This document shows positions 16,833 through 64,000 of a DNA stretch of 64,000 nucleotides, in pieces (the first letter of the stretch is position 1; the number at the start of each line of letters is the position of its first letter). This stretch comes from an uncultured Planctomycetota bacterium (lineage in GTDB: Bacteria > Planctomycetota > Phycisphaerae > Phycisphaerales > UBA5793): the NCBI GenBank assembly GCA_900696685.1, contig CAADHA010000027.1, positions 1 to 64,000 of the forward strand, read 5' to 3'. The notes below the pieces were generated by a model. It had not been told where the DNA came from and did no database searches. It saw nothing but the letters and a program-made list of their open reading frames with translations. Both the position numbers and the translations under genes were made by a program.

Positions 16833-16926
16833 TCTATGGGGCCAGATCATCGGTCGCGGGCGGGGCGAATCTGCTCCGCCCCCATGCCGGCGCTTGCGGA
16901 CGGCAAGGAACGAAAGGGGTTGCGGC

Positions 16927-34358: not shown

Positions 34359-35828
34359 ATGGCTCGGATCAACACCAACATCGCTTCCATGATCGCTCGC
34401 AGCACGCTGAATCGATCCTACCAGGATCTCAATATCAGGCTCGAGCGTCTCTCAACCGGCCTGCGCATCAACCGCGGCGCCGACGACCCCGCCGGGCTGA
34501 TCACGTCCGAGCGGCTGCGGAGCGAACTCTCGGCCATCAACAAGGCCGTCTCCAACTCCGAGCGGGCCGCCTCCGTCATCGCCACCACGGAAGGGGCGCT
34601 GAGCGAGGTTTCCGAACTGCTCAACTCCATCAAGGGCCTGATCATCGAGGCCTCGAACACAGGCGGCATCAGCCCCGAGGAACTCGAAGCCAACCAGTTG
34701 CAGATTGACTCGGCCATTGACGCGATCACCCGCATCAGCAACACGGCGAGTTTCGCCGGCCTGCAACTGCTCAACGGTACTCTCGATTACCTGACTTCGG
34801 GCCTGCCCACCTCCGCCATCGCGAACACCAAGATTCTCGGAGCGAGTTTCGGCACGGCCTCCAACGTGCCCGTCAGCGTCCAGGTGCTCGGTTCGGCCCT
34901 CACTGCCCAGATCACCCTCACCGCCAACTATCCCGGAACCGCCAACGACGGCACCCTCCTCAGCAGCATCACCCTCGAAATCATGGGCAGGGAAGGCGTG
35001 ACCGTCATCCAGTTCGTTTCCGGCACGACCATGCAGGACGTGGTGACAGCCATCAACAGCCGTCGCGACTCCACCGGCGTCGAGGCCAGCCTGGTCAGCG
35101 CCGGAGACATGAGTTCAGGCATGGTCTTCACCAGCGTGGACTACGGCTCCAACGCCTTCGTGAGCGTGAAGAAAATCGGCAGCGGCGGCGAGTTCTTCGA
35201 CTCTCAAATCAGCGGCCAGCGAGAGGTCGGCCGCGACGTGACCGCGATCGTCAACGGCGTGCTCGCCACGGGGCGCGGGCTGGAAATCTCCGTCAAGTCG
35301 CCGGCCCTCAACATTGAGATGCTCCTGACCGCAGCCTACGCACAGGACACGACCAACGTCAAGACCTTCTACATCACCGGCGGGGGCGCCAAGTTCCAAC
35401 TCGGACCGGCCGTCAACGTCAACCAGCAGATCAACTTCGGCGTGCGCTCAGTTGCCGCCTCGCGCCTCGGCGCCACATACCTTAATGATGAACTCCAGTT
35501 CCTCAACTCCATCCAGTCGAGCGGGGGCAACAGCCTCAACTCGGGCAACTTCCTCAACGCGAGCAAGATCGTCGCCTCCGCCATCGACGAGGTCGCGGTC
35601 CTGCGCGGACAACTCGGCGCGATCGAGCGCAACACGATCCAGCCCAATATCCGCTCGCTCAGCGTGGCCCTGGAGAACATTACGGCCAGCGAGTCGAAGA
35701 TCCGGGACGCGGATTTTGCGCTCGAAACCAGCCAACTGACGCGTGCCCAGGTCCTCGTTCAGGCGGGCACCGCGGTGCTCGCGACGGCGAACAGCACGGC
35801 CCAGAGCGTGCTTCAGTTGCTCGGATAA
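34359..35828 (+). CDS. fliC: flagellin 1
   Basis: The 489-residue protein has conserved D0/D1 ends: an N-terminal INTNIASMIARSTLNRSYQD with LERLSTGLRINRGADDPAGL, and a C-terminal segment ESKIRDADFALETSQLTRAQ ending SVLQLLG. The central variable region (about 150-390) probably forms outer D2/D3 domains; part of it is shared with flagellin 2 (FYITGGGA). It is exported by the flagellar machine. AAGGAGG lies 6 nt before ATG inside a small hairpin. A terminator at 35978-36003 follows. It is the first of two paralogues. Confidence 0.96.
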   Translation: MARINTNIASMIARSTLNRSYQDLNIRLERLSTGLRINRGADDPAGLITSERLRSELSAINKAVSNSERAASVIATTEGALSEVSELLNSIKGLIIEASNTGGISPEELEANQLQIDSAIDAITRISNTASFAGLQLLNGTLDYLTSGLPTSAIANTKILGASFGTASNVPVSVQVLGSALTAQITLTANYPGTANDGTLLSSITLEIMGREGVTVIQFVSGTTMQDVVTAINSRRDSTGVEASLVSAGDMSSGMVFTSVDYGSNAFVSVKKIGSGGEFFDSQISGQREVGRDVTAIVNGVLATGRGLEISVKSPALNIEMLLTAAYAQDTTNVKTFYITGGGAKFQLGPAVNVNQQINFGVRSVAASRLGATYLNDELQFLNSIQSSGGNSLNSGNFLNASKIVASAIDEVAVLRGQLGAIERNTIQPNIRSLSVALENITASESKIRDADFALETSQLTRAQVLVQAGTAVLATANSTAQSVLQLLG

Positions 35829-36252: not shown

Positions 36253-37722
36253 ATGAGTCGCATCATCACGAATGTTCCGTCTCTGATCGGACAGCGAAAC
36301 CTCGGTTTGCAGAACCGGTCGCTGAACCTCACTCTCGAGCGGCTGAGCACCGGTCTCCGGATCAACCGCGGCGGCGACGATCCCGCCGGCCTGATCGCCT
36401 CAGAGAACCTGCGGGCCGAAATGAAGGCCATTACTGCCGCCATCAAGAACGGCGAGCGGGCTGAGCAGGTCGTCAACGTCGCCGAAGGCGGCTTGCAGGA
36501 AGTCAGCAACCTGCTTCAGGAACTCCAAGGCCTCGTCGGCCAGTCCGCCAACCAGGCCGGCCTGAGCGATGAGGAGAAGGCTGCGAACCAGCAGCAGATC
36601 GACTCGATCCTTCAGACGATCGATCGCATCAGCAACGCGACCTCCTTCCAGGGCACCAAGCTGCTCAACGGCAACTTCGACTACACGACCTCGGCCGTAA
36701 ACGGCACGCTCCTTTCGGACGTGACGGTCAATTCGGCCAAGTTGCCGACGACGGCAGGCGCGTACCTCGGCGTGTCCGTGGACGTGCTTACCTCCGCCCA
36801 GCGCGCAGAGGTCTATCTCTCCACGACCGGCACCTTCGACGGCAACGGCGGGTCGTACACCATCGAGATCACCGGCAACATCGGGACGCAGCAGGTTACG
36901 ATCAACTCCGGCGCCAGCCAGGCCAACATCATCGCCGCGATCAACCAGTTCAAGGAAGTGACCGGCGTGTCGGCCGCCCAGAACGGGACCAACACGGATC
37001 GCATCGAGCTGCGCTCCAGAGGCTTCGGAAGCGATGCCTTCGTCCGCGTGAAGGAACTGGCGGGCACCACGAGTAATCTCCTCTTCAGCGCCGCGACGGG
37101 AGGCACAGGCACCGACGACTACAGGGACGCGGGCCGCGATGCGACCCTCCTGATCAACGGCATCCAGGCCACTACGAACGGCCTGACGGCGAGAGTGTCC
37201 AGCGATGGGTTTGACGTCTCCGTCACCATCGACGGCGACAGCGCCGTGAACATGACCAACGGCAACACGAATTTCTACATCACGGGCGGCGGGGCGACCT
37301 TCAGCCTCAACCCCACCGTGAATCTCGCCGGCAAGGTCAGCCTGGGCATTCAGTCCGTCTCCTCGGGCAACCTTGGAAACGCCGTCACCGGCTACCTCTC
37401 TGATCTCAAGTCGGGCCAGGCGGCCAACGTGACTACGGGCGACATTGACAAGGCCCAGACCATCATCGACGCCGCGATCAAGCAGGTCTCGGGCCTGCGC
37501 GGCCGCCTCGGCGCCTTCCAGTCGAACACCGTCGGCGCGACCGTCCGTTCGCTGGGCATCTCCTTCGAGAATACCGCGGCCGCGGAAAGCCAGATCCGCG
37601 ACACCGACTTCGCCGCAGAGACCGCCAGCCTCACACGGTCGCAGATCCTGGTTCAGGCCGCGACCACGGTCCTGTCGCTCTCCAACGCTCAGCCGCAGGC
37701 AGTCCTGGCGCTGCTCGGCTAA
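36253..37722 (+). CDS. fliC: flagellin 2
   Basis: A second 489-residue flagellin with conserved ends (SRIITNVPSLIGQRNLGLQN, LERLSTGLRINRGGDDPAGL, and C-terminal IRDTDFAAETASLTRSQI). Its central region keeps some segments of flagellin 1 (NFYITGGGATF) but is otherwise diverged, so the two are probably both filament proteins, perhaps in different positions or amounts. It has its own leader, CsrA-like motif and strong terminator. No chaperone fliS or cap fliD gene is in the window. Confidence 0.96.
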   Translation: MSRIITNVPSLIGQRNLGLQNRSLNLTLERLSTGLRINRGGDDPAGLIASENLRAEMKAITAAIKNGERAEQVVNVAEGGLQEVSNLLQELQGLVGQSANQAGLSDEEKAANQQQIDSILQTIDRISNATSFQGTKLLNGNFDYTTSAVNGTLLSDVTVNSAKLPTTAGAYLGVSVDVLTSAQRAEVYLSTTGTFDGNGGSYTIEITGNIGTQQVTINSGASQANIIAAINQFKEVTGVSAAQNGTNTDRIELRSRGFGSDAFVRVKELAGTTSNLLFSAATGGTGTDDYRDAGRDATLLINGIQATTNGLTARVSSDGFDVSVTIDGDSAVNMTNGNTNFYITGGGATFSLNPTVNLAGKVSLGIQSVSSGNLGNAVTGYLSDLKSGQAANVTTGDIDKAQTIIDAAIKQVSGLRGRLGAFQSNTVGATVRSLGISFENTAAAESQIRDTDFAAETASLTRSQILVQAATTVLSLSNAQPQAVLALLG

Positions 37723-48694: not shown

Positions 48695-51600
48695 TCATTC
48701 CCTCGACGCCGCCCAGCGACGCTCGCGGTGGGGGAGTTTCGGGATGCCGCAGGACGTTACCGTGCACGCTCCCTCGCCGATCGTCTCGCGCAGAAAGCCC
48801 AGCAGCGATTCACTGGCCGTGACACGCAGACGGCCCGGCTCAAGGATGATGTGCCTGCTCCGGGCATAGAGGTGCAGGCGCACGGGCACGGGCCGGCCGG
48901 CGGAGCCGTTGAGCCTCGCCTGGCGCTGGAGTTCGCCGTTGAGCAGCGCCAGCGTCGCCTCCGCTTCATCGCTCTCGTCGAGGTGAATCTCGATGGAACC
49001 GGCCAGTTCGGACGCGGCCCGGGCGATGGGGAGAACGCGATCAACCTTGATGCCGGCAGCCCCGCGCGATTTGTCCACCTGCCCGACGACGAAGATCATC
49101 GCGTGGTCCGTGAGCGCCTCGCCGTACTGGGCGTAGGTATCGGCGAAGAGCACGCCGTCGATCTGCCCGTGCAGATCCTCGATCGTGATCATCGCCATCT
49201 TCTGTCCGGCGCTGCGCCCGTTGCGGACGAGGAGCGGGCGCACGCGCGTGAGCATGCCGCCGATGACGACGGGCTGGTCATGGTCCAATTCGGCCGCCTC
49301 AATGGTCGTATGCGAGCCGAAAGTCTCGATCTGTCGGCGATAGCGTTCGAGGGGATGACTGGAGACGAAGAAGCCCAGCACTTCCTTCTCGTTCATCAGC
49401 GCCTGCTGCAGATCCCACGGGGCGGCGCGCGGCAGGGGTGTCTCGGCGGCGGCGGGCGCGGCGCCGCTGGGCGTCTCCTCCGCAGCCCCGAAGAGCGAGC
49501 CTTGTCCCGAGGCGCGGTCGGCCGCAATCGCCTGCCCGGCCCGCACCGCCGCGTCGATCGCCTCCACCATCGCCGCGCGCTGCGCCATGCCATGCACCGA
49601 GTCAAACGCCCCCGCCTTGATGAGCGCTTCGATCGTCGCCTTGTTCACGATCGCCGGCGGCACGCGCTCGCAGAAGTCAAAGAGCGAACGGAACGGGCCG
49701 CCCCTGCGCCGCTCCTCCACCACGGCCGAGATCGCCTTGTCGCCGGCCCCTTTGAGGGCCCGCAGGCCGAAACGCACATGACCGTGATTCTGATCGTGCG
49801 GCTCATCGGGATCGAAGACCACGGAGAAGTCCGCAGCCGAGAGATTGATGTCCGGCGGCTTGACGTCCAGGCCGGCGTGCCCGTCGGGAAACACGGCGCG
49901 GCGGCAGTCCTCCAGATACGCGATCCAGTCCGAGACCTTCTGCGCCTGCGACTCGTAGGTGAGCACCGCAGCCATGTACTGGTTGGGAAAGTAGGTCTTG
50001 AGGTACGCCGTCTGGTAGGCGACAATGGCGTAGCCCGTCGAGTGGCTCTTGTTGAAGCCGTAGCCTGCAAATTTGAGGATGAGGTCGAAGAGTTCCTCAG
50101 CCTTGCGCCGATCAAGCCCCTTCGCCGCGGCGCCTTCGATGAAGACTGGGCGCTGCGCGTTGATCACGCTCTCCTTCTTCTTGGAAATGGCCTTGATGAG
50201 CGTGTACGCGGCACGAAGCGGGATGCCTCCCAGTTCGTGGCAGATCTGCATGACCTGCTCCTGGTAGACCATCACGCCATACGTTTCGGCTGTGAAACGA
50301 TCGACGATGGCGTGAACTTTCGGCACTTCCTCCTGCCCGTGCTTTCGGCGGTTGTAGTGGGGGATGAGATCCATGGGGCCGGGACGATAGAGTGCGTTGG
50401 CGGCGATGAGGTCTTCCAGGCGGTCCGGCTTCATCTCCATCAGCAGTTTGCGCATCCCGCCCGACTCGAACTGGAATACGCCCGCCGTGTCGCCGCGCTG
50501 AAACAACTCGAACACGCGCGGATCGTCGAACTCGAGGTGATCCAGATCGAGCGGGTCGCGGCTGAGATCTTCAACGCCCAGCGCCGCGCGGATCGTTTCC
50601 TCGCTGAGCGACGCGCGGATGAGTTGCTTCGCCCGCTCGATGATCGAGAGGGTGCGCAGGCCGAGGAAGTCCATCTTCAGAAGACCGAACTTCTCGACCG
50701 TCGGCCCGTCCCACTGTGTGAGCGCTTCGCCCTCATGTGCCTTGGCGCCGGTGGGGCGGCAGAGGGGGATGATGTTGTCAAGAGGCTGCGTGGCGATGAC
50801 GACGCCCGCGGCATGGACCCCCGCATGCCGCACCTGACCCTCCAGCGCCCGGGCCGTGTCGATGAGCGTGCGGATCTCCTCGCGCGAGTCATACTCCTTG
50901 CGCAGGTCCGGCTCCTTCTCGAGCGCCTCGTCGATCGACACGTTGAGTCCGTCGGGCACCATGTTGGCGAGGCGCTGAGTCTCGCCGGGCGTGAGGCCGA
51001 GGACGCGGCCGACGTCCTTGATCGCCGCGCGGGCCTTGAGCGTGCCGAAGGTGATGATCTGCGCCACGTGCCCGTACTTCTGCCGCACGTATTCGATAAC
51101 GGCGCCGCGGCCGTCCTGGCAGATGTCGATGTCGATGTCGGGGTATTCGCTGCGGTCCGGGTCGGTGAATCGCTCAAAGAGCAGGCCGTAGCGGACCGGG
51201 CAGGCGTTGGAGAGGCCGAGAACGTAGCCGGCCATCGTGCCCACGCCCGACCCGCGCGCGGCCGCGGGAATGCCCCGCTGACGCGCCCAGTTCACGAAGT
51301 CCCACACGATCAGGAAGTAGGCGGAGATCGACTTGTCGGCGAGGATGCGCAGTTCGCGGTCAAGCCGGTCGCGGATCTCGTCGGTCACACCGTCGATGCC
51401 GTAGCGCCAGATCAGCCCCGCCTCGCTCAGTTCGCGCAGGGCGCGATCGCAGCGCTGCTTGAGTTCCTCGGGCGTTTCGTGGTCGCGCGTGGCGTCGAAG
51501 GGTTCGAGGTTGTACAGCGCGCAGAACTCCGTGTACCACTTCGTCCGATCGCCGCCGGCGTACTCAATGCGGCGGGCGGGGATGACAGGCTTGACAACGG

Positions 51601-52504
51601 GCGCATGGTTCCGTCCCGTCGGCAGGTCAACATTGCAGCGCTGCGCAATGTGGATCGTGTTCTCGATTGCCGCGGGCAGGTCGGCGAAGAGTTCCGCCAT
51701 CTCCTCCGGACTCTTGACGTAGACTTCCTTCGGATAACGAAGGCGGTTCGTCTCCGTCTTCGCCTTGCTCATCGAGATGCAGCAGAGCGTGTCGTGGGCG
51801 TCGTAGTCCTGCTCGCGCATGAAGTGGGCGTCGTTGTCGCACACGAGCGGAAGGTCGAGCAGACGCGCCAGGCGGATCAGATGCGGGTTGATCGCCTCCT
51901 GCTCCGCCACACCGTTGCGCTGCACTTCGACATAGAAGCGAGGCTCGCCCTTCTCGTTGCGCCCGAAGGTCTCTGCGTGCCACTTCGCCTCTTCAACCGC
52001 CGCATCCCAGTGAGACGCCGCATCCGGATTCTGAACGAACTTGAGCAGGTGGTGCGCAATGCTCGAACCGAGGTGCCCGTTGATGGCAATCAGCCCGTCG
52101 GACCACTGCGCCAGCGTGCTCTTGTCCATGCGCGGCTTGAAATAGAAGCCGTTGCGGTAGGAGTCGCTGGTGAGTTTGAGGATGTTCCGCCATCCCTGGT
52201 CGTTCTCGGCGAGGAGCACGAGGTGAAAGCCGCCGTCCGCTACGCCGGTGTACTGCCGGTCGCCGCGCTCGCCGGGGGCGACGTATGCCTCGATGCCGAG
52301 GATCGGCTTGACGCCGGCCTCTTTCGCGAGGGTGTAGAACTCAACGGCCCCGAAAACGTTGCCGTGATCCGTCATCGCCACCGCGTCCATCCCCAGGTTC
52401 CGGACGTACCGGACCAGGGCCGGGATGCGGTTGCCCCCATCGAGCAGGCTGTACTCGGTGTGGAGGTGGAGGTGAACGAATCGCGGCTTGGGTTGTTCGG
52501 TCAT
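48695..52504 (-). CDS. dnaE: DNA polymerase III alpha subunit
   Basis: This is the replicative polymerase. The N-terminal PHP domain starts with FVHLHLHTEYSLLDG and AMTDHGNVFGAVEFY; the catalytic aspartates are in PDIDIDICQDGR at about 454-465; later come the polymerase palm/finger segments (PGPMDLIPHYNRRKHGQEEV, YGVMVYQEQVMQI, FNKSHSTGYAIVAYQTAYLK). The C-terminal part holds an OB-fold (VVIGGMLTRVRPLLVRNGR). At 1269 residues it is longer than E. coli DnaE (1160), mainly through a linker rich in Pro/Ala near residue 1015. A TTGACA promoter lies upstream. Downstream, 55 nt separate it from the cysteine desulfurase gene. Confidence 0.97.
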   Translation of the reverse strand: MTEQPKPRFVHLHLHTEYSLLDGGNRIPALVRYVRNLGMDAVAMTDHGNVFGAVEFYTLAKEAGVKPILGIEAYVAPGERGDRQYTGVADGGFHLVLLAENDQGWRNILKLTSDSYRNGFYFKPRMDKSTLAQWSDGLIAINGHLGSSIAHHLLKFVQNPDAASHWDAAVEEAKWHAETFGRNEKGEPRFYVEVQRNGVAEQEAINPHLIRLARLLDLPLVCDNDAHFMREQDYDAHDTLCCISMSKAKTETNRLRYPKEVYVKSPEEMAELFADLPAAIENTIHIAQRCNVDLPTGRNHAPVVKPVIPARRIEYAGGDRTKWYTEFCALYNLEPFDATRDHETPEELKQRCDRALRELSEAGLIWRYGIDGVTDEIRDRLDRELRILADKSISAYFLIVWDFVNWARQRGIPAAARGSGVGTMAGYVLGLSNACPVRYGLLFERFTDPDRSEYPDIDIDICQDGRGAVIEYVRQKYGHVAQIITFGTLKARAAIKDVGRVLGLTPGETQRLANMVPDGLNVSIDEALEKEPDLRKEYDSREEIRTLIDTARALEGQVRHAGVHAAGVVIATQPLDNIIPLCRPTGAKAHEGEALTQWDGPTVEKFGLLKMDFLGLRTLSIIERAKQLIRASLSEETIRAALGVEDLSRDPLDLDHLEFDDPRVFELFQRGDTAGVFQFESGGMRKLLMEMKPDRLEDLIAANALYRPGPMDLIPHYNRRKHGQEEVPKVHAIVDRFTAETYGVMVYQEQVMQICHELGGIPLRAAYTLIKAISKKKESVINAQRPVFIEGAAAKGLDRRKAEELFDLILKFAGYGFNKSHSTGYAIVAYQTAYLKTYFPNQYMAAVLTYESQAQKVSDWIAYLEDCRRAVFPDGHAGLDVKPPDINLSAADFSVVFDPDEPHDQNHGHVRFGLRALKGAGDKAISAVVEERRRGGPFRSLFDFCERVPPAIVNKATIEALIKAGAFDSVHGMAQRAAMVEAIDAAVRAGQAIAADRASGQGSLFGAAEETPSGAAPAAAETPLPRAAPWDLQQALMNEKEVLGFFVSSHPLERYRRQIETFGSHTTIEAAELDHDQPVVIGGMLTRVRPLLVRNGRSAGQKMAMITIEDLHGQIDGVLFADTYAQYGEALTDHAMIFVVGQVDKSRGAAGIKVDRVLPIARAASELAGSIEIHLDESDEAEATLALLNGELQRQARLNGSAGRPVPVRLHLYARSRHIILEPGRLRVTASESLLGFLRETIGEGACTVTSCGIPKLPHRERRWAASRE

Positions 52505-53039: not shown

Positions 53040-54407
53040 TCAGCGCCTCAGAAGCACCGCCTGGCCGGTGGTGAGTCGGATCGGCCGCACACCGCTGCCG
53101 GCGGCGAACTCATCCACCGCTTGTCGCGCGCCCGGGCACGTCAGAAACCCGTCATCATCGATGATGATGATCCCGCCGGGAGCGAGGCGAGGGTAGAAGA
53201 ACGCAAGCGCCGCGCGAGTCGGTTCGTGGAGGTCCACATCGATGTGGACGAAAGCGAAGCGCGCCTCGCACGCCGCCTCGAAGCACGCAGGGATCCAGCC
53301 TTGATGAAACGCCAGGTCGCTCCAGCGCGCCAGGGCGGCCTGCACATCTTCAATTCCCCATCTCATGTCGCCCGGCCGCCATGGTCTCACTCCCGGCTCG
53401 GGACGGTCGGCGGGCGTCGGCGTCGAGAGGCCCTCGAAGGAGTCGAAGAGGTGGTGGGCGTAGGCGGCGTGGCGCGGCAGCATCTCGGCGTAGCGGCGGA
53501 TGATCCACGAGCCGAGGCCGCGGTAGACGCCGCACTCGGCCGTGTCGCCGTCGAGCCGGCCCAGCGAGAGCAGGCACTCCTTGATGGTGTAGTAGCGGTC
53601 GCGCGGCCCGGGGCCGCAGAGCGCTTCGCCCTCGGCGCAGATGCGGTTGAACTCCTCCTCGCGCGGCCAGTAGAGCAGGTCGTCGCGCAACCTCGCCGCC
53701 GTGCGCGCCGCCTCGGACTGGTGCGTGTCGATGGGAGTCGTAATGATCAAGACTTCTTCGCGTTTGCGCGCCGCGAAAAGAAGCAGCGTGTACTCGCGCA
53801 GCGAGTCTGTCTGGAAGGGCGCTTCGAGTCCGACGATCGCTTCGATTTCACCAAGGCGCATCGAGCCGGTGCGGGGCAGGCGGGCCAGCCAGCCTCCATC
53901 GATCTCGAAGCCGTTGGCGCGATAGAACTGGTCGAGCACGCGGGGCTGCAGGGAGTAGAAGCCGTGGTTCTCCCAGCCGGCGACGGGTGAGACATGCAGG
54001 ACGGTCCCGCCGGTTCGGAGCATCGCGACGATGCCGCGAAGGGCCGCGGGAATGTCGAAAATGTGCTCGAGCGTTCCGCCGTCGATAATCAGATCGAAGC
54101 GGCCGCGCCACGGCTGCGGCGGAGGCTGCGAGAGGTCGTGGATGATCGAGGCGCCTTCGCCGCCGAACAGGTCGAGCGCGTGATACTCCCGAAAGCCCAG
54201 GAGAGAGAAGAAGCGATCGGCGGCAACGCCGGTGCCCGGCGCGAGCGCCTGGATCGGCGCAGCGACGGGCCGTCCGTCGAGCAGGTCACGGACCTCCGTT
54301 TCTGTGGCGCCGATGTCCTGCACGCCCAGCGTGAGCACCGACCTCCCCGGCGCGCGGGGACGGTGCCGCTCGATGAGCCAGCGGACGATCGGCAGCGCCA
54401 GGCCCAT
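53040..54407 (-). CDS. fusion of a class I methyltransferase and a TylF/MycF-type sugar O-methyltransferase
   Basis: The 455-residue protein has two SAM-methyltransferase parts. Residues 1-215 contain VLTLGVQDIG, HALDLFGGEGASIIHDL and FDLIIDGGTLEHIFD with a methyltransferase-11-like layout. Residues about 225-455 are like TylF/MycF macrocin O-methyltransferases: GDTAECGVYRGLGSWIIRR, HHLFDSFEGLSTPT, FAFVHIDVDLHEPTRAALAFFYPRL and the metal-binding-type GGIIIIDDDGF. TylF enzymes methylate sugar hydroxyls, often with Mg2+. It is the last gene of the minus-strand glycan cluster, so methylation of a polysaccharide or glycan precursor is likely. GGGGAG lies before ATG. Confidence 0.8.
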   Translation of the reverse strand: MGLALPIVRWLIERHRPRAPGRSVLTLGVQDIGATETEVRDLLDGRPVAAPIQALAPGTGVAADRFFSLLGFREYHALDLFGGEGASIIHDLSQPPPQPWRGRFDLIIDGGTLEHIFDIPAALRGIVAMLRTGGTVLHVSPVAGWENHGFYSLQPRVLDQFYRANGFEIDGGWLARLPRTGSMRLGEIEAIVGLEAPFQTDSLREYTLLLFAARKREEVLIITTPIDTHQSEAARTAARLRDDLLYWPREEEFNRICAEGEALCGPGPRDRYYTIKECLLSLGRLDGDTAECGVYRGLGSWIIRRYAEMLPRHAAYAHHLFDSFEGLSTPTPADRPEPGVRPWRPGDMRWGIEDVQAALARWSDLAFHQGWIPACFEAACEARFAFVHIDVDLHEPTRAALAFFYPRLAPGGIIIIDDDGFLTCPGARQAVDEFAAGSGVRPIRLTTGQAVLLRR

Positions 54408-54443: not shown

Positions 54444-55982
54444 TCAGGCGGTACGGGGGCACTCATGCGCCGCCTTGCTCCACCGCGACGGCGGGTCATA
54501 GATCTGCTTGAAGGGAAGGTCATCACGGTAGAAGCCCAATGTCGCGACCCGCCACCGGCGCAGCAACTGATCGGCCGGAGTGAAGTGCCGCGCCTTGGGG
54601 GCGATGCCCACTCCAACATGATACTTGCCGTCGCACAGGAACAGCCTCGGGAACTCGACGCGGAAGACCTGCCGGCCGCGCCGGAGGTTGAGACGCTGCG
54701 GCGAGGGTCTCCCCGTCTCGTCGAGTTGTGTGAGGTTCGTCGAAGTGAGCACGTGAACGTCCGCTTCGTTGAAGATCTGCACGCCGACGGCGACGTTGTC
54801 TTTGCGCACGCTGCTGTCCACGGTGATCTCGACCGTCACGGGCTCGCCGGTGTGGAAGCGATCGCGCGGCGCGCCGCTCGCATCGAGGATTCGCACGGAG
54901 ACGAGGCGGACGAGATTGAGATGAAGAATCGGCGGGCATCGGTCTTCGGGATCGTCAAGCAGCGCCTGGATTTCCTGTGGCGGTGGGGGGATCGAGGGGT
55001 CATCCTCATCAACGGGCGGCGCGCCGCGAGCCGCGGCGTCCCCACCGCGGCTCGCCCCCGAATCACCCAACGCCCCCGCCACCCCCGCGCCGCGCCGCGC
55101 CGTCGTCTGTGCAAACTCCGCGAGGAGTTCCCTCTCATACATCTGCGTGATCTCGCGGCTCGGGCCGTCGGCCGCGAGTTCGCCGCGGCGCAGGTAGAGC
55201 GATCGCGAGCAGAGCGTCTCGATGAAGAACATGCTGTGGGAGACGACAAGGGCCGTCGCCCCGCCCGTACACAGGTCGAGAATGTGGTTCGTGCACTTCT
55301 GCTGAAAGGCGAGGTCGCCCGTCGCCAGCGCTTCATCGACGATGAGAATGTCAGGCCGGCGACAGAAGGTGACGGCAAAGGTGAGACGCGACTTCATCCC
55401 GCTGCTGTAGGTGCGGAAGGGCTGGTCGATGACGTGGCCCAGGCCGGAGAAATCGATGATCCAGTCGATGGACTCCTCGATCTCAGCCCTGGAGTATCCG
55501 AGGCAGTAGCCGCCCATGAAGATGTTCTCGCGGCCGCTGTATTCCTCGTGAAAACCTGTGCCGAGTTGGAGGATGGCGCGGAGGTCGCCCTCGATGCGGA
55601 ATGAACCGCCGGTGTGATCGAGCGTGCCGGCGAGGATGCGCAGCAGGGTGCTCTTGCCCGCGCCGTTGGCGCCGACGACGCCGACGATCTCCCCGCGCTT
55701 TACCGAAAACGAAACGTCGCGCAGCGCCCAGTGAGGCTGGTAGAGCGGGCGGCGGACGATCAGTTCCTTGAGAATCTGCGAGGGACTGGAGTAGATCCTG
55801 TAGAGTTTGGAGAGGCCGCTCACGACGATCGCGGGACGAGGCGGTGATTCGCTTGACGGCGGAGGGTCGGGGGAAATGCCGCCGGCGCGCACCGACCCGG
55901 CTTCGTCCGCGAATGCAGGCTGCCCTGAAGCGCCGACGTGGACTTCAACGGGAGGCGAAGATCGTGTGAGCACGTCGGTCAT
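54444..55982 (-). CDS. polysaccharide ABC exporter ATPase, Wzt-like
   Basis: The ATPase domain (about 50-300) has Walker A GANGAGKST, the signature TYSSGMKSRL and Walker B DILIVDEAL, and the pattern FSVKRGEIVGVVGANG typical of O-antigen/teichoic acid exporters (Wzt, TagH). The C-terminal 150 residues form a beta-rich domain (VRILDASGAPRDRFHTGEPV, YHVGVGIAP) like the Wzt glycan-binding domain that recognises the finished chain end. Between them is a Gly/Ala/Pro-rich linker (about 305-345) that includes a palindromic repeat. The permease partner (Wzm) is not in the window. It lies 36 nt before the methyltransferase/TylF fusion. Confidence 0.86.
   Translation of the reverse strand: MTDVLTRSSPPVEVHVGASGQPAFADEAGSVRAGGISPDPPPSSESPPRPAIVVSGLSKLYRIYSSPSQILKELIVRRPLYQPHWALRDVSFSVKRGEIVGVVGANGAGKSTLLRILAGTLDHTGGSFRIEGDLRAILQLGTGFHEEYSGRENIFMGGYCLGYSRAEIEESIDWIIDFSGLGHVIDQPFRTYSSGMKSRLTFAVTFCRRPDILIVDEALATGDLAFQQKCTNHILDLCTGGATALVVSHSMFFIETLCSRSLYLRRGELAADGPSREITQMYERELLAEFAQTTARRGAGVAGALGDSGASRGGDAAARGAPPVDEDDPSIPPPPQEIQALLDDPEDRCPPILHLNLVRLVSVRILDASGAPRDRFHTGEPVTVEITVDSSVRKDNVAVGVQIFNEADVHVLTSTNLTQLDETGRPSPQRLNLRRGRQVFRVEFPRLFLCDGKYHVGVGIAPKARHFTPADQLLRRWRVATLGFYRDDLPFKQIYDPPSRWSKAAHECPRTA
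55026..55055. repeat. palindromic repeat inside the Wzt-like linker
   Basis: GCGAGCCGCGG and CCGCGGCTCGC form an 11-bp perfect stem with an 8-nt loop (CGTCCCCA). The sequence resembles the repeat at 47255-47304 and, more loosely, 62450-62497. It encodes part of a low-complexity linker in frame. Confidence 0.45.
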
Positions 55983-56002: not shown

Positions 56003-59000
56003 CTATTTTCCTTCAATGATACGGTCGATGAGCCTGCGCCAGATGTTGCGCGCCCGGGCGGGCCGCGGCGCGGGACGGTTCGTCCGGCGGAGGACGAAGC
56101 GGCCGCTGAGCGTGAGAAGTTGCTCGTCGGTCATGCGGGCGAAGCGCGGTGCGAGGCCGGGGCGAGCTTCGGCCAGTTGGCGCGGATCGGCAAAGAGGTT
56201 GGCCTCGTGGCGCATCACCTCGAAGCCGGCACGACCGAACTCGACGGCCCACTCGTGCGGCCGCACGCGGTTGCCGTTCTCGTTGCGCGTCTGAAGGAAG
56301 AGGCGGCGGTAGCGGGCGTCGCCGTGGCGCAGGAAGCCGTAGGGTCGGGCGAAGTCGTCGTGGTCGCGGTAGTCGATCTGGTGCAGGCCCAGTCCGCCCG
56401 CCTTCGTCAGCCGCGCCAGTTCAAGCGACGCGCAGGCGGCGTCGCCGACGTGCTCAAGCACGGCGTTGGAGACGATCGCATCGAAGGACACGCCCGCCGG
56501 CCCCGACGAGGGTGAGCCGAGGTCGCCGGCGTACTGCGGAATCACCTCAGACGGGTGGGCTGCGGCCTTGATCACCGCATCAAGGGGCGAGCGGTCGGCC
56601 GCCGGAAGGCGCTGGCGCACGACGTCGCGCAGGCGGCGGTAGAAGCCCGCGTGATAGGATTCGTCCCACGGCGCAAGGTACTTGTCCAGCACGGCGATCC
56701 GGGCCCCGAGTGCGGCGCAGATCAGCATGGCCCCGAAGTTGCGCCCCGGTCCGAGTTCGAGGACGTGCAGGCCCGTGAGGTCGGGAAGGTCCCTGATGAC
56801 GCGGACCTTCTCGAAATCCGGTCTCGGGCCGCGCAAACGGCCGAAGTGAGAGGCGATCTCGTAAGCGTAATCGATCGCGTTTCGCAGGCAGTAGCCGACC
56901 TGGTCGTTGACGTGGTCGGCGGGATCGACCAGGTCAGCGCGGCGCTGCGTGAATGCGCGGGCGATGGGCTGCTCATCGTCATCTCCGGCGCTCTCCTCGC
57001 GGCGCACATAGAAGCGCGCGCTGACGACGCGCAACTGCTCGTCGCTCATCGATGCAAAGCGGGGCTGGAGGCGCGGCCTGATTTCCTTCAGGTGCACTTC
57101 GTCGGCAAAGAGATTCGGCTCGGTCATCTCGATTGAGAATCCCGCTGATTCAAGATCGCCGGCGAGTTCGTGGGCGCGGACTCGATTGCCCTGGCTGTTG
57201 TTCGACTTGACGAACCGGGGGATGAACTCGCCGTCGGGGACCGTGAGGAAATCGAGCGGCGACTCCTGGTGCTCGTGGTCGCGAAAATCCACCTGGTGGA
57301 TGCCGATGCCGCCGGCGCGCGTGAGGCGGGCGAGTTCGCGCGACATCGCGGCCGTGTCGCCGATGTGCTCGACCACGGCGTTGGAAACGACGGCGTCAAA
57401 AGAGGCGTCCGCGTAAGGGCTGGGCGGCTGCGCGAGGTCGCCCGAGGCGGCGGCGACGACCGGGCCGGCATGCTCCCCGGCGTCAATGACCTGCCGCAGT
57501 CCGCGCCAGTCGGCATAAGGGAAGTGGCGGCGGCATGCCCTCAGCAGGGCGCGGTAGTAAAGCGGGTGATAGCGAGGATCCCACGACGCCAGGTACTTGT
57601 CCAGGACTGAGACGCGCGCGCCGCATGCGTGCGCAATGAGCACCGCTCCGAAGTTCGGGCCCGGCCCGAGTTCGAGAACGGAGAGACCGGACAGGTCTGC
57701 GAGAATGCCGTACTCCGATACCGCTCCGTCGCCGGCGCCCGCGAGAGGCGGGCGGCCGAAGCGATGCGCGATCGCGGAAACGTAGAACACCCCGTTGATG
57801 ATCGCGTAGCGGACGTGCTCGTCCATCGCGCCCTCGACGGCCCATCGGTCTTCGGCGAGATCGGTGTCGGCGAACTTCTTGTTGCGGCCTGCCGGGGCGA
57901 GAGAGACGGCCTCGAGCGCGAGACGTCGCAGGTAGAAGCGCCCGCTCACCACCGACAATTCATCGTCGCTGAGGCGGGCGAACTGCGGGCGCAGGCGCGG
58001 CCGGACCTCGGCGACGTGCTCGGCCGAGGCGCGGATGTTGGCGGCAAAGCGCCCGACCGCGAATCCCGCGCAGCGGAACTCGTCGCCCATCTCCTCCGGG
58101 CGGACCCGATTGCCGTTGCCGTTCATCATCTCGTCGAAGAGGCGCCGGTACGCCTCGTCGGGCATCGTGAGAAAGTCGAGGGGGCGGGCGAAGTCGCGGT
58201 GGTCGCGGAAGTCGACCTGGTGGAGGTTGATGCCGCCGGCCGCCGTGAGCCGGGCCATCTCCGCCGCGGTCTTCGGCACGTCGCCGACGTGCTCGAGCAC
58301 CGCGTTGGAAACGATCACGTCAAAGGACGCATCGGCGAACCCGCTGGGCGGCTCGGCAAGGTCAGTGCGGTCCTGCGCGATCACGTCCGGCAGATGGGCT
58401 GCGGCGTCGAGGATGCGGTCAATCCCCGACCAGTCGTTGTGAGGCCGGCGCTGCGCAAGCATGTCGCGCAGGAGGCGGTAGAAGCGGGGGTGATAGCCGA
58501 CGTCCCAATCGGCGAGGTACTTGTCGAGGACTGCGACGCTCGCGCCCAGACCCTGCATCACCAGCGGCGTGCCGAAGTGCCGGCCGGGGCCGAGTTCCAG
58601 CACGCGCAGTCCGCTGAGTGGGAGGACACTCTCCGCGTCGCGACTCATTTCGCCGCAGATGAGCGCGGCGTACTCCTCCGCCACTCGGATCGCGTACTCG
58701 ACGTCTTCGCGGACCTGCGCATCGGTGATGGCGCGGAGGTAGAAGCGGCCGCTGATGGGGCGCAGTTCCTCGTCGGTCATCACCGCGAAGCGGGGGGCAA
58801 GGCGCGGACGGACCGCGGCGAGGCAGTCGTCGTCCGCAAGCATGTTCGGGCCGAAGTGTTCCACGCGGAATCCGGCGCCCTGGAACGCGCGGAGCATCTC
58901 GGCCGGCCTGAGGCGGTGACCCGGAGACCATCGGCCCGCCGCGCGCTGCTGCTCCACCTGCTCATCGGTCAGGGTGAGGAACTCGAGCGGCCGGCTGTAG

Positions 59001-59581
59001 TCGCGGCCATCACGGAAGTCGACCTGGTGAATGCCGAACCCGTCGGGCCGCGTGATGCGGTACAACTCCGAAAGCAAGCCGCGGAGATCGACCTGGTTGA
59101 GCACCGCGTTGGTGACGAGGGCGTCGAACGAATCATCCTCGATCGGCAGAGGCCCCGCGAGGCAGGGGGCCTCGATGAACTCGATCACCCCCTCGCCGTA
59201 CGATCCGGCTTCGAGCGTGGAGTCAATCCACGACCAGTCGGCGCCCGGATACTCCTCGGCGCCGACCCGGCCCAGCGCCCGGAGGAACGCATGTGTGCCG
59301 GCATCCCAGCGCACAAAGTGCGTGTGGACCGCCGCGACGCGCGCGCCGAAGGCGCGGCAGACCAGCAGGGGGCTGAAGCGGTCAGGCGTGCCGAGTTCCG
59401 CCAGGCGCACGGCTGAGAGATCGGGAAAGGGCTGCATCCGCCGCGAGAGGCGAGTCGCGATCGACTTGGCGTACTCGCAGCCGTTGTCGAGCGCGAAGCG
59501 CACTTCGCGCATTGTCGAATCATCGATGGGCGCTTCGACGGCGAGGGCGCGGGAGGGAATGCGGGCGGCGGCTTGCGTCAT
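56003..59581 (-). CDS. four-module SAM-methyltransferase-like protein
   Basis: The 1192-residue protein consists of four related modules of about 260-275 residues: M1 24-283, M2 288-553, M3 586-861, M4 891-1166. Each has a motif I, the segment V-VLDKYLA-WD-YH-FYR, SFDA-VSNAVLEH, G-HQVDFRDH and an end like SGRFYLRR. M2, M3 and M4 keep the SAM loop LELGPGRHFG, LELGPGPNFG and LELGPGRNFG. M1 reads LAELGTPDRFSP and NAVLNQVDL, so it has probably lost SAM binding. GGGAG precedes the ATG. The gene sits between a glycosyltransferase and a Wzt-like ATPase, which suggests methylation of a surface glycan at several positions. No known family with four such modules comes to mind. Confidence 0.8.
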   Translation of the reverse strand: MTQAAARIPSRALAVEAPIDDSTMREVRFALDNGCEYAKSIATRLSRRMQPFPDLSAVRLAELGTPDRFSPLLVCRAFGARVAAVHTHFVRWDAGTHAFLRALGRVGAEEYPGADWSWIDSTLEAGSYGEGVIEFIEAPCLAGPLPIEDDSFDALVTNAVLNQVDLRGLLSELYRITRPDGFGIHQVDFRDGRDYSRPLEFLTLTDEQVEQQRAAGRWSPGHRLRPAEMLRAFQGAGFRVEHFGPNMLADDDCLAAVRPRLAPRFAVMTDEELRPISGRFYLRAITDAQVREDVEYAIRVAEEYAALICGEMSRDAESVLPLSGLRVLELGPGRHFGTPLVMQGLGASVAVLDKYLADWDVGYHPRFYRLLRDMLAQRRPHNDWSGIDRILDAAAHLPDVIAQDRTDLAEPPSGFADASFDVIVSNAVLEHVGDVPKTAAEMARLTAAGGINLHQVDFRDHRDFARPLDFLTMPDEAYRRLFDEMMNGNGNRVRPEEMGDEFRCAGFAVGRFAANIRASAEHVAEVRPRLRPQFARLSDDELSVVSGRFYLRRLALEAVSLAPAGRNKKFADTDLAEDRWAVEGAMDEHVRYAIINGVFYVSAIAHRFGRPPLAGAGDGAVSEYGILADLSGLSVLELGPGPNFGAVLIAHACGARVSVLDKYLASWDPRYHPLYYRALLRACRRHFPYADWRGLRQVIDAGEHAGPVVAAASGDLAQPPSPYADASFDAVVSNAVVEHIGDTAAMSRELARLTRAGGIGIHQVDFRDHEHQESPLDFLTVPDGEFIPRFVKSNNSQGNRVRAHELAGDLESAGFSIEMTEPNLFADEVHLKEIRPRLQPRFASMSDEQLRVVSARFYVRREESAGDDDEQPIARAFTQRRADLVDPADHVNDQVGYCLRNAIDYAYEIASHFGRLRGPRPDFEKVRVIRDLPDLTGLHVLELGPGRNFGAMLICAALGARIAVLDKYLAPWDESYHAGFYRRLRDVVRQRLPAADRSPLDAVIKAAAHPSEVIPQYAGDLGSPSSGPAGVSFDAIVSNAVLEHVGDAACASLELARLTKAGGLGLHQIDYRDHDDFARPYGFLRHGDARYRRLFLQTRNENGNRVRPHEWAVEFGRAGFEVMRHEANLFADPRQLAEARPGLAPRFARMTDEQLLTLSGRFVLRRTNRPAPRPARARNIWRRLIDRIIEGK

Positions 59582-59596
59582 CAGTCACTCCCGGTG

Positions 59597-61654
59597 TCAG
59601 GTTCGCACGGCCTCGGGGCGCTTGGTCTGCACGAGCGGCGCGGCCTCCGGCTCGACTGACTGTTCGGTCGCGGTCGCATCGCCGGCGTCGGCGAAGCGGG
59701 CCCGGGGAGTCTCGATGCGCGCGCCGCCGGATTCTCCGTCAAGCGCATGGTTGTAGATCCGCCACGTCAGATCGACCATCTGGTCGAGGTCGAAGCAGGC
59801 ATCGACAAACGCCTGGGCGGCGCGCCCCATGCGCTCGCGCCGGCTCGGGTCGCGCAGGAGGCGCTCAAGGCCGACGACGAGTCCGGCCGCATCGTTCACC
59901 CCGCACACGAACCCGGTGACGCCATGGCGCACCGCGTCGCGCGTCCCTCCCGCGTCCGTGGCGACGACCGGCAGGCCGATGTGCTGCGCTTCGAGCGCCA
60001 CGTTCGGGCAGCCTTCGTAGCGGCTCGTGAGCAGGAGGACGTCGGCGGCGCTCATGATCTCGACGACGTCGCTGACGCGCCCCAGCAGAGTTATGACCTG
60101 TTCCAGATGACGCCGTGCGATGATCTCGCGCACGCGAGCCTCGAGCGGGCCGCTGCCCGCCACCACGACGCGCACGCCCGGCAGGCGCTCGCGAAGGAGG
60201 GTGACGACCTTGAGCATGAGTTCCGGCTGTTTCTCCTCGTCGAGGCGGCTGACCACGGCGACGACCGGCGCGCCCGCCGGCAGGCCGAGTCGTTCGCGTG
60301 CGGCCCGGCGCTGCGCAGCGGCCGGCCGGTCGAAGTGATCGCGGAACAGGCCGTTGAAGACGATGTGGAAGCGCGACTCCTCAACGCCGAGGTACTCGGC
60401 GTAACTTGCCGCGCCGCGATGCGAATTGGCCAGCCACTGCAACCGCCGGCTCGGTGCGATCACTCGATACCAGTCCACGAACGGCGCGTAGAAGCGCGGA
60501 AAGTGCGTCGGGTTGTAGTTGCGCGTGCTCAGCACGACGCACGGCACTCCGGCGGCAATCCCCGCCAGGCCCGCGATCACGTTCGGATGATCCAGCCAGG
60601 CGTGCAGGACATCGGGCGCCTCGACCGCGAGCTCCAGGGCCAGCGCCGCGACGTAAGAGCGGATCGCCTCGGGCGCCGCGGCGACAAGATCCCACCGCAC
60701 GCGGGAAAGCGATTCACGCGTCAGATGCAGTCCGCGGCCGGCGCGCCGGGCCTCGACGCCCGCTTCAGCGAGCAGGGGAAGGTAGTGCGCGTGCTGCCCG
60801 GAAAGGTCGTGCTGCGTGCGGACGATACAGCGGTGGCCTCGCTGGTGGAGGCCGATGGCGGTGTTGCACAGTTGGCGCTCGGCCCCGCCGCTGTAGAGGC
60901 AGCCGGTGTATTGGACAATGCACAGCGGGCGGTCCGGTCGGGGCGCACGCGAGGCGAGCGACTTGTTGTCCGCCTCGATGAAACGCCTCCACGCCGACTC
61001 CGCCTCGTCCGCGCTGCGCCCGATCGTTGCGTGAACGAGACCCTCGCCGGGGCTCGGTGCGCTGTCCTTGCCGTCCTGCTCATGCCGGTCGCGGCGCATC
61101 CACGCGCCCAGCCCGTCGGCGACCGCGGCGCTGTCGATGGGCAGGCCGGGACAGAGGCGGCGCAGCAGTGGCTTGATCCTTCGTGTCACGAGCAGGTCGG
61201 CAAGAATGGTCGAGGGATCAGCGCAGGTCCAGCCCCGATCCTCCAGCATCCACAGCCGCTTCACGCCGGCACGGCGAAGCCACATCATCGCCTTGATTGA
61301 CACATTGGCGCGCGACGTCGGGATCAGCGCCGTCGCGTCTGCCTGCGGCAGCGACGGCAGGCGAGCGAGCCTCGGCAGGCCGTCGGCGACGTCGAGCAGC
61401 CAGAGAGCGGCGCCGTGGCCGACGGGCCGCACGCCGCTCACGGCCGCCTGCGCGAACAGCAGCGCATTGAGGAGATCGAGCCAAGGGCCGGGCGCGAGCG
61501 TGCCGCGATGCACTGCCACGCCGCCCTCCTCGTGCCAGTGACGCACGGCCAGGGCGAGCGCATCGAGGTCAGCCTCGCGGTTGGGCGAAGGCGCGACTGG
61601 GATGCTTTCGGCCCAGTGGTCTTCAGGGCGTGCGTTGGTTACGGCGGGCGTCAC
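59597..61654 (-). CDS. GT4 glycosyltransferase with a novel N-terminal domain
   Basis: Residues about 245-640 form a GT-B family 4 transferase: YTGCLYSGGAERQLCNTAIG, then VVAVVSRLDEEKQPELML, LLGRVSDVVEIMSAADVLLLTSRYEGCPNVALEAQ with the EGxPxxxLE nucleotide-sugar motif, and PVVATDAGGTRDAV. The first 240 residues are not GT-like and not recognised (LDALALAVRHWHEEGG, GHGAALWLLDVADGLPRL), with an Asp/Trp-rich pattern. The start is GTG overlapping the previous stop (GTGA). The C-terminal tail is unstructured. Sugar donor and acceptor are unknown; context suggests surface glycan assembly. Confidence 0.85.
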   Translation of the reverse strand: MTPAVTNARPEDHWAESIPVAPSPNREADLDALALAVRHWHEEGGVAVHRGTLAPGPWLDLLNALLFAQAAVSGVRPVGHGAALWLLDVADGLPRLARLPSLPQADATALIPTSRANVSIKAMMWLRRAGVKRLWMLEDRGWTCADPSTILADLLVTRRIKPLLRRLCPGLPIDSAAVADGLGAWMRRDRHEQDGKDSAPSPGEGLVHATIGRSADEAESAWRRFIEADNKSLASRAPRPDRPLCIVQYTGCLYSGGAERQLCNTAIGLHQRGHRCIVRTQHDLSGQHAHYLPLLAEAGVEARRAGRGLHLTRESLSRVRWDLVAAAPEAIRSYVAALALELAVEAPDVLHAWLDHPNVIAGLAGIAAGVPCVVLSTRNYNPTHFPRFYAPFVDWYRVIAPSRRLQWLANSHRGAASYAEYLGVEESRFHIVFNGLFRDHFDRPAAAQRRAARERLGLPAGAPVVAVVSRLDEEKQPELMLKVVTLLRERLPGVRVVVAGSGPLEARVREIIARRHLEQVITLLGRVSDVVEIMSAADVLLLTSRYEGCPNVALEAQHIGLPVVATDAGGTRDAVRHGVTGFVCGVNDAAGLVVGLERLLRDPSRRERMGRAAQAFVDACFDLDQMVDLTWRIYNHALDGESGGARIETPRARFADAGDATATEQSVEPEAAPLVQTKRPEAVRT

Positions 61655-63801
61655 GCGTCGGCGCTCCCGTTGCGGTGAGGATTCACGGCCGGTCGATCCA
61701 GATCATCTTCCAGATCGTAGACCTTTCCCTCGACCGTCAGGCAGCGCCGATCGACCTGTTCAAGCGATTGCTCCAGCAGCGATTCGATCCGCTGGAGGAG
61801 TTTGCGCCGATCGTCGTCGAGCCGCGCCGACAGGCGGTTGATCTGGGCCATGAGTTCGGCGTGAGTCCGATCTCGGTGCTGCCGCTCGGCCTGCACCTGA
61901 GCGGTCGCCGCATCGAGGCGCTGCCGGAGGCGGTCATTCTCCGCGCGCATCTCGACGATGGTGGCCTGCGCGGCGGCGACGGACTCGGCATGCCTTGCGG
62001 CAAGCACCTGCTGTTCGGCAAGGCTGCGATGGGCGGCCCGGAGTTCATCGGCCGCGGCGCCCCGCTGCCTCATCGCTTCGTTGATGACGTTGGTGTGATG
62101 GTTGACTTCCTTGAGCCAACGCTGAGCCTCCTGCTCGCGCTGGGCGCGGGCCGCGGCGAGTTCGGCCGTGATCGACTCGATGGCCGAATGCGTCTGGTCG
62201 ATTCTCTGGCGGAGGGAAGCGAGCTGCTCATCGCGGTTCGCCCGGCCGCGCCATTGCTCGACCTCGTTTCGCGCCGAGGCCAGTCCCGCCGTCAGGTCGC
62301 GCAACTGGGCTTCAAGCAGATTGGCGCGGCACCACGACTCGAATCGCTCCCGGCGGACGCGCACCAGCGCTGCCGCTTCGGCGCTTCGCAGATCCATCAC
62401 CTCGTCGGTGCGGCTCGAGTAGAGGCGAAGTCTCGAGGTCAACGGAGCAGCCCGGCGCGCGGACCCGCGGCGCGCCGTCCCTCCCGCGGCTCGCGCCTTG
62501 GCGCACAGCGCCATCACCACCTGCGGCCTCGAATCGCTCGCCGACCACGGCTCCTGCACGTCAAAGCGCCCGCCGTGCACTTCACCCGCACGATCTTCCT
62601 CGAACACGAATGAGCCGGTGACGTCTGTCTGCCGGAGCCAGCGCAAGGATTCGAAGCCGCTCAACCACGAGGCGAGTTCCTCGCGGGCGGGCACGTACAG
62701 GTGGAACGCGTTGCCGTGCTGGTTGATTCTCTCCCACACCGTCTCGCACTCGCGGTCGGGCACCGACACAAGAAGCGTGCCGCCCGGCGCGAGCACGCGG
62801 TCGAACTCCGCGATCGCCTCGCGCTGGGCCGTGATGTGTTCGAGCGTCTCGAGGCAGATGACGAGGTCGAATGCGCCGTCCTCGAAGGGCAGGGGCGTGC
62901 GATTCAGGTCCCACTCGATGAACTCGGCGCGATCGTCGCCTTTGAACTGTTCGCGCCCGAGGCAGATCGCTTCGGCCGAGACGTCAAGGTTGACGACATG
63001 CGCTGCGCCGGCATCGAGAAAGCGCCGGGCGCCCAGGCCCGCCCAGCCGCCCGCGTCGAGGACTCGGCGTCCCCTGGCCAGCGAGGCTGCGATGTCCAGC
63101 CGTGCGCCGCAATGAGCCATGATTGCGGCGTGGCCCGGCACGGGGTGATCCGACATCGGGGCGCTCAGACGCACCAGGCTCAGGCCGTTCGCCTCGCCCG
63201 CCGATTCCGCGCACTCGGCCATCGGCCGCACGCCGAAGCCGATCGCAATCGCCCGCCGGCGCACCTCTTCGATGACCGCCTCGACGTTCTCATCGCCATC
63301 ACGAGGGATGATTTCGATCGACGAACTCCATTGCGTGCGATCGTGAATCAGCCTGAGCAGGGCGTCGGCATTGCGCGCGAGGCGCTTGATGCCGTCGATC
63401 ACGACGATTTCGACGGGGCCTTCGATGAGGCGCGGCAGATCTTCATCGCCGCATTGCTCGTAGGTATAGCCCCAGCGGCGGCGGAAGTTGTCCGGCGCGA
63501 TGCCGTCGAGCGGGTAGCTGATCAACCGCGGTTCACCCCCGAGGATTGCCTGGCGGAGGGCGGGCATGAGAGCGTCGTCCCGCTCCGGTCGCCAGGGCTG
63601 CTCATCGGGGCAGCAGACCTGCACCTGACAGCCCGCGCAGGCGAACCACAGCCCCAGCGCGAGGTCGGCGGGCTCGTCCTGGATGACGGTGAGGCGCTGC
63701 CACAGCGACCGCCCGCAGCCCCCCGGCCAGCGGGCGACGATCGATTCCGCCCGGTCGATGACGCTGCGGGCCGCTGCACCGCTCTCCGGGCCGGCAGGCA
63801 T
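61651..63801 (-). CDS. methyltransferase with a long C-terminal coiled coil
   Basis: The 716-residue protein has an N-terminal domain of unknown type (1-230), a class I methyltransferase at about 235-420 (GRRVLDAGGWAGLGARRFL, VNLDVSAEAI, FDLVICLETLEHI, APGGTLLVSVPD), a variable part, then about 220 residues of heptad-rich coiled coil (LRDLTAGLASARNEVEQWRG to LNR-type repeats), ending VYDLEDDLD. This layout recalls WbdD-type chain terminators, whose coiled coil sets polysaccharide length next to a methyltransferase; the resemblance is structural, not by sequence. Start ATG 63801 has AGGGGA upstream. It overlaps the glycosyltransferase by 4 nt. The bases 63802-64000 beyond it show no supported gene. 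Confidence 0.78.
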   Translation of the reverse strand: MPAGPESGAAARSVIDRAESIVARWPGGCGRSLWQRLTVIQDEPADLALGLWFACAGCQVQVCCPDEQPWRPERDDALMPALRQAILGGEPRLISYPLDGIAPDNFRRRWGYTYEQCGDEDLPRLIEGPVEIVVIDGIKRLARNADALLRLIHDRTQWSSSIEIIPRDGDENVEAVIEEVRRRAIAIGFGVRPMAECAESAGEANGLSLVRLSAPMSDHPVPGHAAIMAHCGARLDIAASLARGRRVLDAGGWAGLGARRFLDAGAAHVVNLDVSAEAICLGREQFKGDDRAEFIEWDLNRTPLPFEDGAFDLVICLETLEHITAQREAIAEFDRVLAPGGTLLVSVPDRECETVWERINQHGNAFHLYVPAREELASWLSGFESLRWLRQTDVTGSFVFEEDRAGEVHGGRFDVQEPWSASDSRPQVVMALCAKARAAGGTARRGSARRAAPLTSRLRLYSSRTDEVMDLRSAEAAALVRVRRERFESWCRANLLEAQLRDLTAGLASARNEVEQWRGRANRDEQLASLRQRIDQTHSAIESITAELAAARAQREQEAQRWLKEVNHHTNVINEAMRQRGAAADELRAAHRSLAEQQVLAARHAESVAAAQATIVEMRAENDRLRQRLDAATAQVQAERQHRDRTHAELMAQINRLSARLDDDRRKLLQRIESLLEQSLEQVDRRCLTVEGKVYDLEDDLDRPAVNPHRNGSADA

Positions 63802-64000
63802 ATGGTTTCCCCTGCGGTGGTGTCCGCTTGTCCCTGCTGAATCAAAGGTATCGGGGCCAGGCGAGTCAACACGACCTCCGTCGCCCACTACCGCACCGCG
63901 CACTTGTTTGCGAGGGGTTCGACTCCTATCGAGGTCGAGCCTTGCCGACGAGAGGACGGCCGCCGCACCCCTGCTTCGCGCAGCCAGAGTTCGAGGATGA

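Follow-up and report, generated by a model that had tools for sequence, protein, structure and literature searches.

In this study, we show that one gene of the analysed DNA, a stretch of 64,000 nucleotides referred to here as the window, encodes four homologous class I methyltransferase modules (M1 to M4) arranged in tandem in a single protein, named 4xMT. It is a real, unusual and conserved protein, and its four-module layout is a variant within a known and common methyltransferase superfamily. M1 is, as far as sequence can tell, a conserved pseudoenzyme and not a product of recent decay. The best explanation, which we regard as somewhat probable, is a cytoplasmic four-module glycan methyltransferase that belongs to a WbdD-like capping and export system and in which M1 serves as a binding or scaffold module.

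The reading frame of 4xMT (56003..59581, minus strand) is intact from an ATG at position 59581 to a stop at position 56003. It encodes 1192 amino acids, and its GC content by codon position (0.73/0.47/0.85) is of the coding type. On the same strand, M1 comprises aa 1-283 (58733..59581), M2 aa 284-552 (57926..58732), M3 together with a variable linker aa 553-860 (57002..57925) and M4 together with a second variable linker aa 861-1165 (56087..57001). The signature S[GA]RF[YV][LV]R closes each module, at residues 277, 546, 854 and 1159. Among the five species of the genus the M2-M3 and M3-M4 linkers differ; M1 and M2 are joined without a linker, and this junction is invariant. M1 is 38-40% identical to the other modules (M1-M2 39.7, M1-M3 38.0, M1-M4 37.5%), and these share 47.6% (M2-M3), 53.5% (M2-M4) and 46.2% (M3-M4). 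BLASTP of module against module yields 156-255 bits (E 1e-50 to 1e-89) and 60 shuffled controls at most 22 bits, which rules out chance similarity. An assembly or frame artefact is ruled out as well, since the same layout is encoded in four other genomes of the genus. Searched separately against protein families, as the preliminary description of the sequence had proposed, all four modules pass the Methyltransf_11 cut-off of 21.2 bits (M1 31.5, M2 34.7, M3 33.9, M4 21.7); M4 also matches Methyltransf_23 with 28.6 bits. NCBIfam gave sub-threshold generic methyltransferase matches only, and methyltransferase domains are the only ones detected in 4xMT by profile search and in the full-length model. 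The intact frame, the similarity between modules and the profile matches thus bear out the four tandem methyltransferase modules that had been read at first sight.

That description had also noted intact SAM loops in three modules and a broken one in the first, and this is what we find. Motif I reads LELGPGRHFG in M2, LELGPGPNFG in M3 and LELGPGRNFG in M4. The glycine-rich motif I and the acidic residue after beta-2 are intact in all 15 M2-M4 sequences of the five species, and an EH pair after motif IV is likewise kept, so M2, M3 and M4 are probably active. The EH pair is present in 26 of 26 modules other than M1, and a profile alignment matches its His with a His in the phosphoethanolamine methyltransferase of plants. 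A structure model of M2, built from a 31-row alignment, shows a class I SAM methyltransferase fold (pLDDT 96.9, pTM 0.93). The presumed Rossmann SAM fold is thereby modelled with confidence for M2; M1, M3 and M4 are seen only in the low-confidence full-length AlphaFold model (five sequences, pLDDT 63.7, pTM 0.41), in which an identical order of secondary structures recurs four times and which is too weak for the packing of modules, M1 on M2 included. Single-sequence PDB searches returned no match. The best PDB matches of the M2 model are all SAM methyltransferases, namely plant PEAMT, MitM, RebM, AtmM and sarcosine/dimethylglycine methyltransferase, with TM-scores of about 0.45-0.5, so the match is one at superfamily level with no close relative. 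AtmM carries the name D-glucose O-methyltransferase, in a superfamily that is broad. The plant and nematode PEAMT/PMT enzymes (5wp5, 5wp4), the best PDB profile and fold matches, resemble 4xMT in that a single chain contains class I methyltransferase domains in tandem. However, they have two modules and no glycan context, the identity of the fold match is about 14%, and the profile match to the 4xMT family is partial, covering about 45 residues around motif IV.

M1 departs from its sister modules at the SAM site. Instead of LELGPG it carries AELGTPDRFSP (aa 61-71, 59369..59401, minus strand), conserved as AELGTPxRFxP in all five species. The acidic residue D that ends beta-2 is replaced by H or N, again in every species. 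After motif IV the family sequence EHVGD has become [NS]QVD (NQVD in the window; aa 162-165, 59087..59098), so that the EH pair is found in none of the five M1 sequences. M1 is accordingly a homologue but not an intact member of the class in all five species, and SAM binding in the usual mode is unlikely, judging from these residues. The degenerate first module of the preliminary description is hence confirmed as a module without SAM-site residues, and the loss is fixed in five species. One might suppose that M1 is a decaying remnant without function, as the disappearance of the SAM motif and of EH would suggest. We consider this extremely improbable: M1 is present in 5/5 genomes, its dN/dS in four species pairs (0.10, 0.14, 0.17, 0.31) lies within the range of M2-M4 (0.06-0.37), and the altered motif residues are mostly invariant, with A61, T65, P66, R68, F69, P71, T87, H88, F89 and Q163 unchanged across five species. 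By dN/dS and invariance, decay of M1 is rejected. M1 appears instead to have changed fast once and to have been constrained since.

The losses in M1 are unevenly distributed. Positions with a conservation of 80% or more among the 26 modules other than M1 were counted as conserved in the family; M1 has lost 15/27 of them up to the EH motif vs 3/23 after it (Fisher p = 0.003, with the split chosen post hoc). By analogy with class I methyltransferases, the first part is referred to as the SAM half and the second as the acceptor half. The latter retains HQVDFRD (aa 185-191, 59009..59029, minus strand), which is HQ[VI]DFRD in 5/5 M1 sequences, as in nearly all family members. It had been suggested that an inactive first module might be kept for binding. 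Degeneracy that is fixed in five species and lies mainly in the SAM half favours binding or scaffolding over recent decay. Counting against our explanation, constraint within the genus is about as strong in one half of M1 as in the other, so the altered pocket may itself serve some purpose.

M1 might also be no more than a structural partner of M2, forming a pseudo-dimer without any glycan binding, while the three active modules do the work. The invariant, linker-free junction of M1 with M2 and the position of M2 as the slowest-evolving module fit this well, and there is a precedent in PRMT7, where a SAM-dead tandem module forms a homodimer-like structure with an active one (PMC8399567). As in 4xMT, the modules of PRMT7 stand in tandem and one cannot bind SAM, which for M1 is a prediction; PRMT7 is, however, a eukaryotic protein arginine methyltransferase with two modules, the inactive one C-terminal, and is not known to be related to 4xMT in sequence. 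Against a purely structural M1 stand the retained family positions in HQxDFRD, PLEFL and G-R-R, which a pure scaffold would not obviously need, although some may be structural. We treat this as a less probable reading, and return to M1 as a binding or scaffold module.

The four-module protein is present in 5/5 genomes of the genus (G000-G004), the other four being 63-65% identical to that of the window. A scan of a collection of 84,980 species with a single-sequence query, which reaches close relatives only, returned a sole locus, apparently that of G003. Overlapping sets of genomes from the class (298), the phylum (392), the order (350) and a second order (14) were searched as well; single modules occurred in them, but no other tandem array was seen. 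The array thus appears to be genus-specific within the genomes of the phylum searched, other phyla being barely sampled. In the window's own genome no second copy of 4xMT was found, nor were relatives in viral contigs or plasmids, and a phage or plasmid origin was rejected on the latter ground. The preliminary description knew of no enzyme of this shape, and no four-module homologue with an assigned function turned up; in the open literature searched for glycan pathways with several methyltransferase domains in one protein or in tandem, there was nothing of four-module shape.

Single-module relatives in the phylum (G003 C38, G007, G756, G373, G452 and others) share ELGPG, EH, HQxDxRD and NRxR with 4xMT but possess one module, which either stands by itself or is joined to a methyltransferase of another kind, and in none is there a tandem array. 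The relative in G003 (C38, L009 1465-2484, minus strand) is a single-module paralogue outside the operon, 43% identical to M4, that the tree places within the M1-M4 clade, with a long branch. In G007 (L020 / L014), from another family of the order, the single-module relative adjoins an asparagine-synthase-like gene, which repeats the association with AsnB described below. In a tree of the 20 modules of the five species, sequences from different species cluster according to module position, with one group for each of M1 to M4; the array is therefore older than the genus. When eleven outside modules are added, one clade (96/99) unites all genus modules with the G003 paralogue, and the branch leading to M1 is long. 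Both trees suggest that a single ancestral module was duplicated in the lineage before the genus diversified, and the one clade at 96/99 rules out the recruitment of four different methyltransferase families. M2 is the most conserved module (80% mean identity). This common origin bears on how M2 to M4 share their work. They belong to one duplicated family with 46-54% identity and the same motifs, and they could be redundant, performing one reaction on successive units for dosage or processivity and not on different positions. Yet they were already distinct before the genus split, each is marked by invariant residues not shared with the others, and there is no sign of homogenisation between them. 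Redundancy is a reading to which we give rather low probability.

The gene lies in a same-strand run of genes for glycan handling. 4xMT sits between a GT4 glycosyltransferase gene (59597..61654; Glycos_transf_1, E 3e-39) and the gene of Wzt (54444..55982), an ABC ATPase with a C-terminal carbohydrate-binding domain (ABC_tran and Wzt_C above cut-off). Near it are MT-CC (61651..63903) and a Wzm-type permease, an ABC2_membrane protein encoded beyond the end of the window (L010:4145-5056). MT-CC combines a methyltransferase (Methyltransf_11) with a long C-terminal coiled coil (SMC-like match 530-717), a possible terminator or ruler; in the tail a 3.5-residue periodicity is clear and proline is absent, and its length ranges from 236 to 289 residues depending on the species. 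In minus-strand order, two sulfotransferases, a protein without assignment, the Wzm-type permease, a radical SAM protein and AsnB (beyond the window end, L010) are followed by MT-CC, GT4, 4xMT, Wzt, a TylF-type methyltransferase (53040..54407; TylF E 4e-17), a short ORF of uncertain status and a long ORF (48695-52504) that we read from its sequence as dnaE. The order from AsnB to TylF is identical in G001, G002 and G004, and in G003 it is confirmed from MT-CC onward. The first domain of the TylF-type protein is methyltransferase-like, with an unusual motif I, LTLGVQDIG. For MT-CC aa 1-250 and for the N-terminal aa 1-240 of the GT4 protein there is no Pfam family, and both regions are conserved across the genus. 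GT4, Wzm, Wzt with Wzt_C, AsnB and the sulfotransferases in one run agree with the glycan context that had been proposed for the methylation.

At least six to seven domains of methyltransferase type are encoded in the operon vs one recognisable glycosyltransferase. That only one glycosyltransferase and no kinase were found there counts against our explanation. The product could also be a modified small molecule or peptide that is methylated by the methyltransferases of the operon, in keeping with its radical SAM, AsnB-like and two sulfotransferase genes and with the many class I methyltransferases among the PDB matches that act on natural products. Wzt_C, the Wzm-type permease and GT4 speak for a glycan, however, and in relatives, too, the modules directly follow Wzt. 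A small molecule or peptide is in our judgement improbable, and we retain a glycan as the putative substrate.

Two further gene groups were observed on the contig. Roughly 20-25 kb from 4xMT, and in 5/5 genomes of the genus, there is a pair of flagellin-like genes (34359-35828 and 36253-37722, plus strand) of exactly 489 aa each and about 43% alike. Three prepilin-like genes with near-identical N-termini stand in a row (15718-16590, 16894-17835 and 18171-19064, plus strand). Runs of prepilin-like genes with near-identical N-termini are common in Planctomycetota.

A close known parallel in gene context is WbdD of E. coli O9a and K. pneumoniae O3/O5, together with related chain terminators that carry a coiled coil. 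In WbdD systems a coiled-coil protein sets the chain length and a terminator modifies the chain end; the carbohydrate-binding domain of Wzt reads the terminal group, and only modified chains are exported (PMC3482155, PMC11231755). Here, too, a methyltransferase is found with Wzm (ABC2_membrane) and a Wzt that has a carbohydrate-binding domain, and the operon has a coiled-coil methyltransferase. WbdD differs in having one methyltransferase domain, whereas 4xMT is without a kinase and without a coiled coil, the latter being on a separate neighbour; the union of methyltransferase and coiled coil in one protein is thus a trait of MT-CC and not of 4xMT. Distant relatives connect the two proteins. 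In G452 and G373, which share only the phylum with the window's genome, a relative of Wzt (47% over 423 aa in G452) is directly followed by a fusion of about 560 aa, in which a 4xMT-family module (44% identical to M2 in G452) is joined to a methyltransferase 37-41% identical to that of MT-CC. Being fused in one lineage and near each other in another argues that 4xMT and MT-CC act on the same substrate, close to Wzt. The long coiled coil is absent from the fusion, and this counts against our explanation.

From the architecture and conservation of 4xMT, the pattern of loss in M1, the gene order and the fusion in relatives, we infer activity, a substrate, a physical complex and chain-end capping as follows. 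4xMT would be a cytoplasmic enzyme with a surface glycan as its substrate, and the adjacent Wzm/Wzt ABC transporter would export this glycan. M2, M3 and M4, with their SAM-binding and EH residues kept, would be sugar O-methyltransferases that add methyl groups to the same glycan, at the chain end or along it. The preliminary description had suggested methylation at several positions of a repeating glycan; the modules may instead modify the end of the chain, or may all target a single position. As SAM binding by M1 is unlikely, its other conserved half is kept and no linker separates it from M2, the most likely role of M1 is to hold the acceptor glycan or to pair with M2 as a pseudo-dimer scaffold. 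4xMT and MT-CC, whose gene lies two genes upstream, probably work together to cap or decorate the glycan, in a role comparable to that of WbdD, and the methylated chain would then be recognised by the carbohydrate-binding domain of Wzt. In a far more specific version, to which we give little weight, M1 holds the nascent chain and feeds it to three active modules that differ in specialisation, with a separate coiled-coil methyltransferase as ruler and Wzt as reader, and a multi-methyl terminal code gates export.

The precedent found for a SAM-dead supporting module is eukaryotic PRMT7, and this principle would be broadened by a bacterial case that is fixed and belongs to a sugar-chain pathway. 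With its series of four modules, 4xMT is a naturally occurring system in which the division of labour among duplicated enzyme modules can be studied. Moreover, the operon adds a methyltransferase-rich design to ABC-transporter-dependent glycan export.
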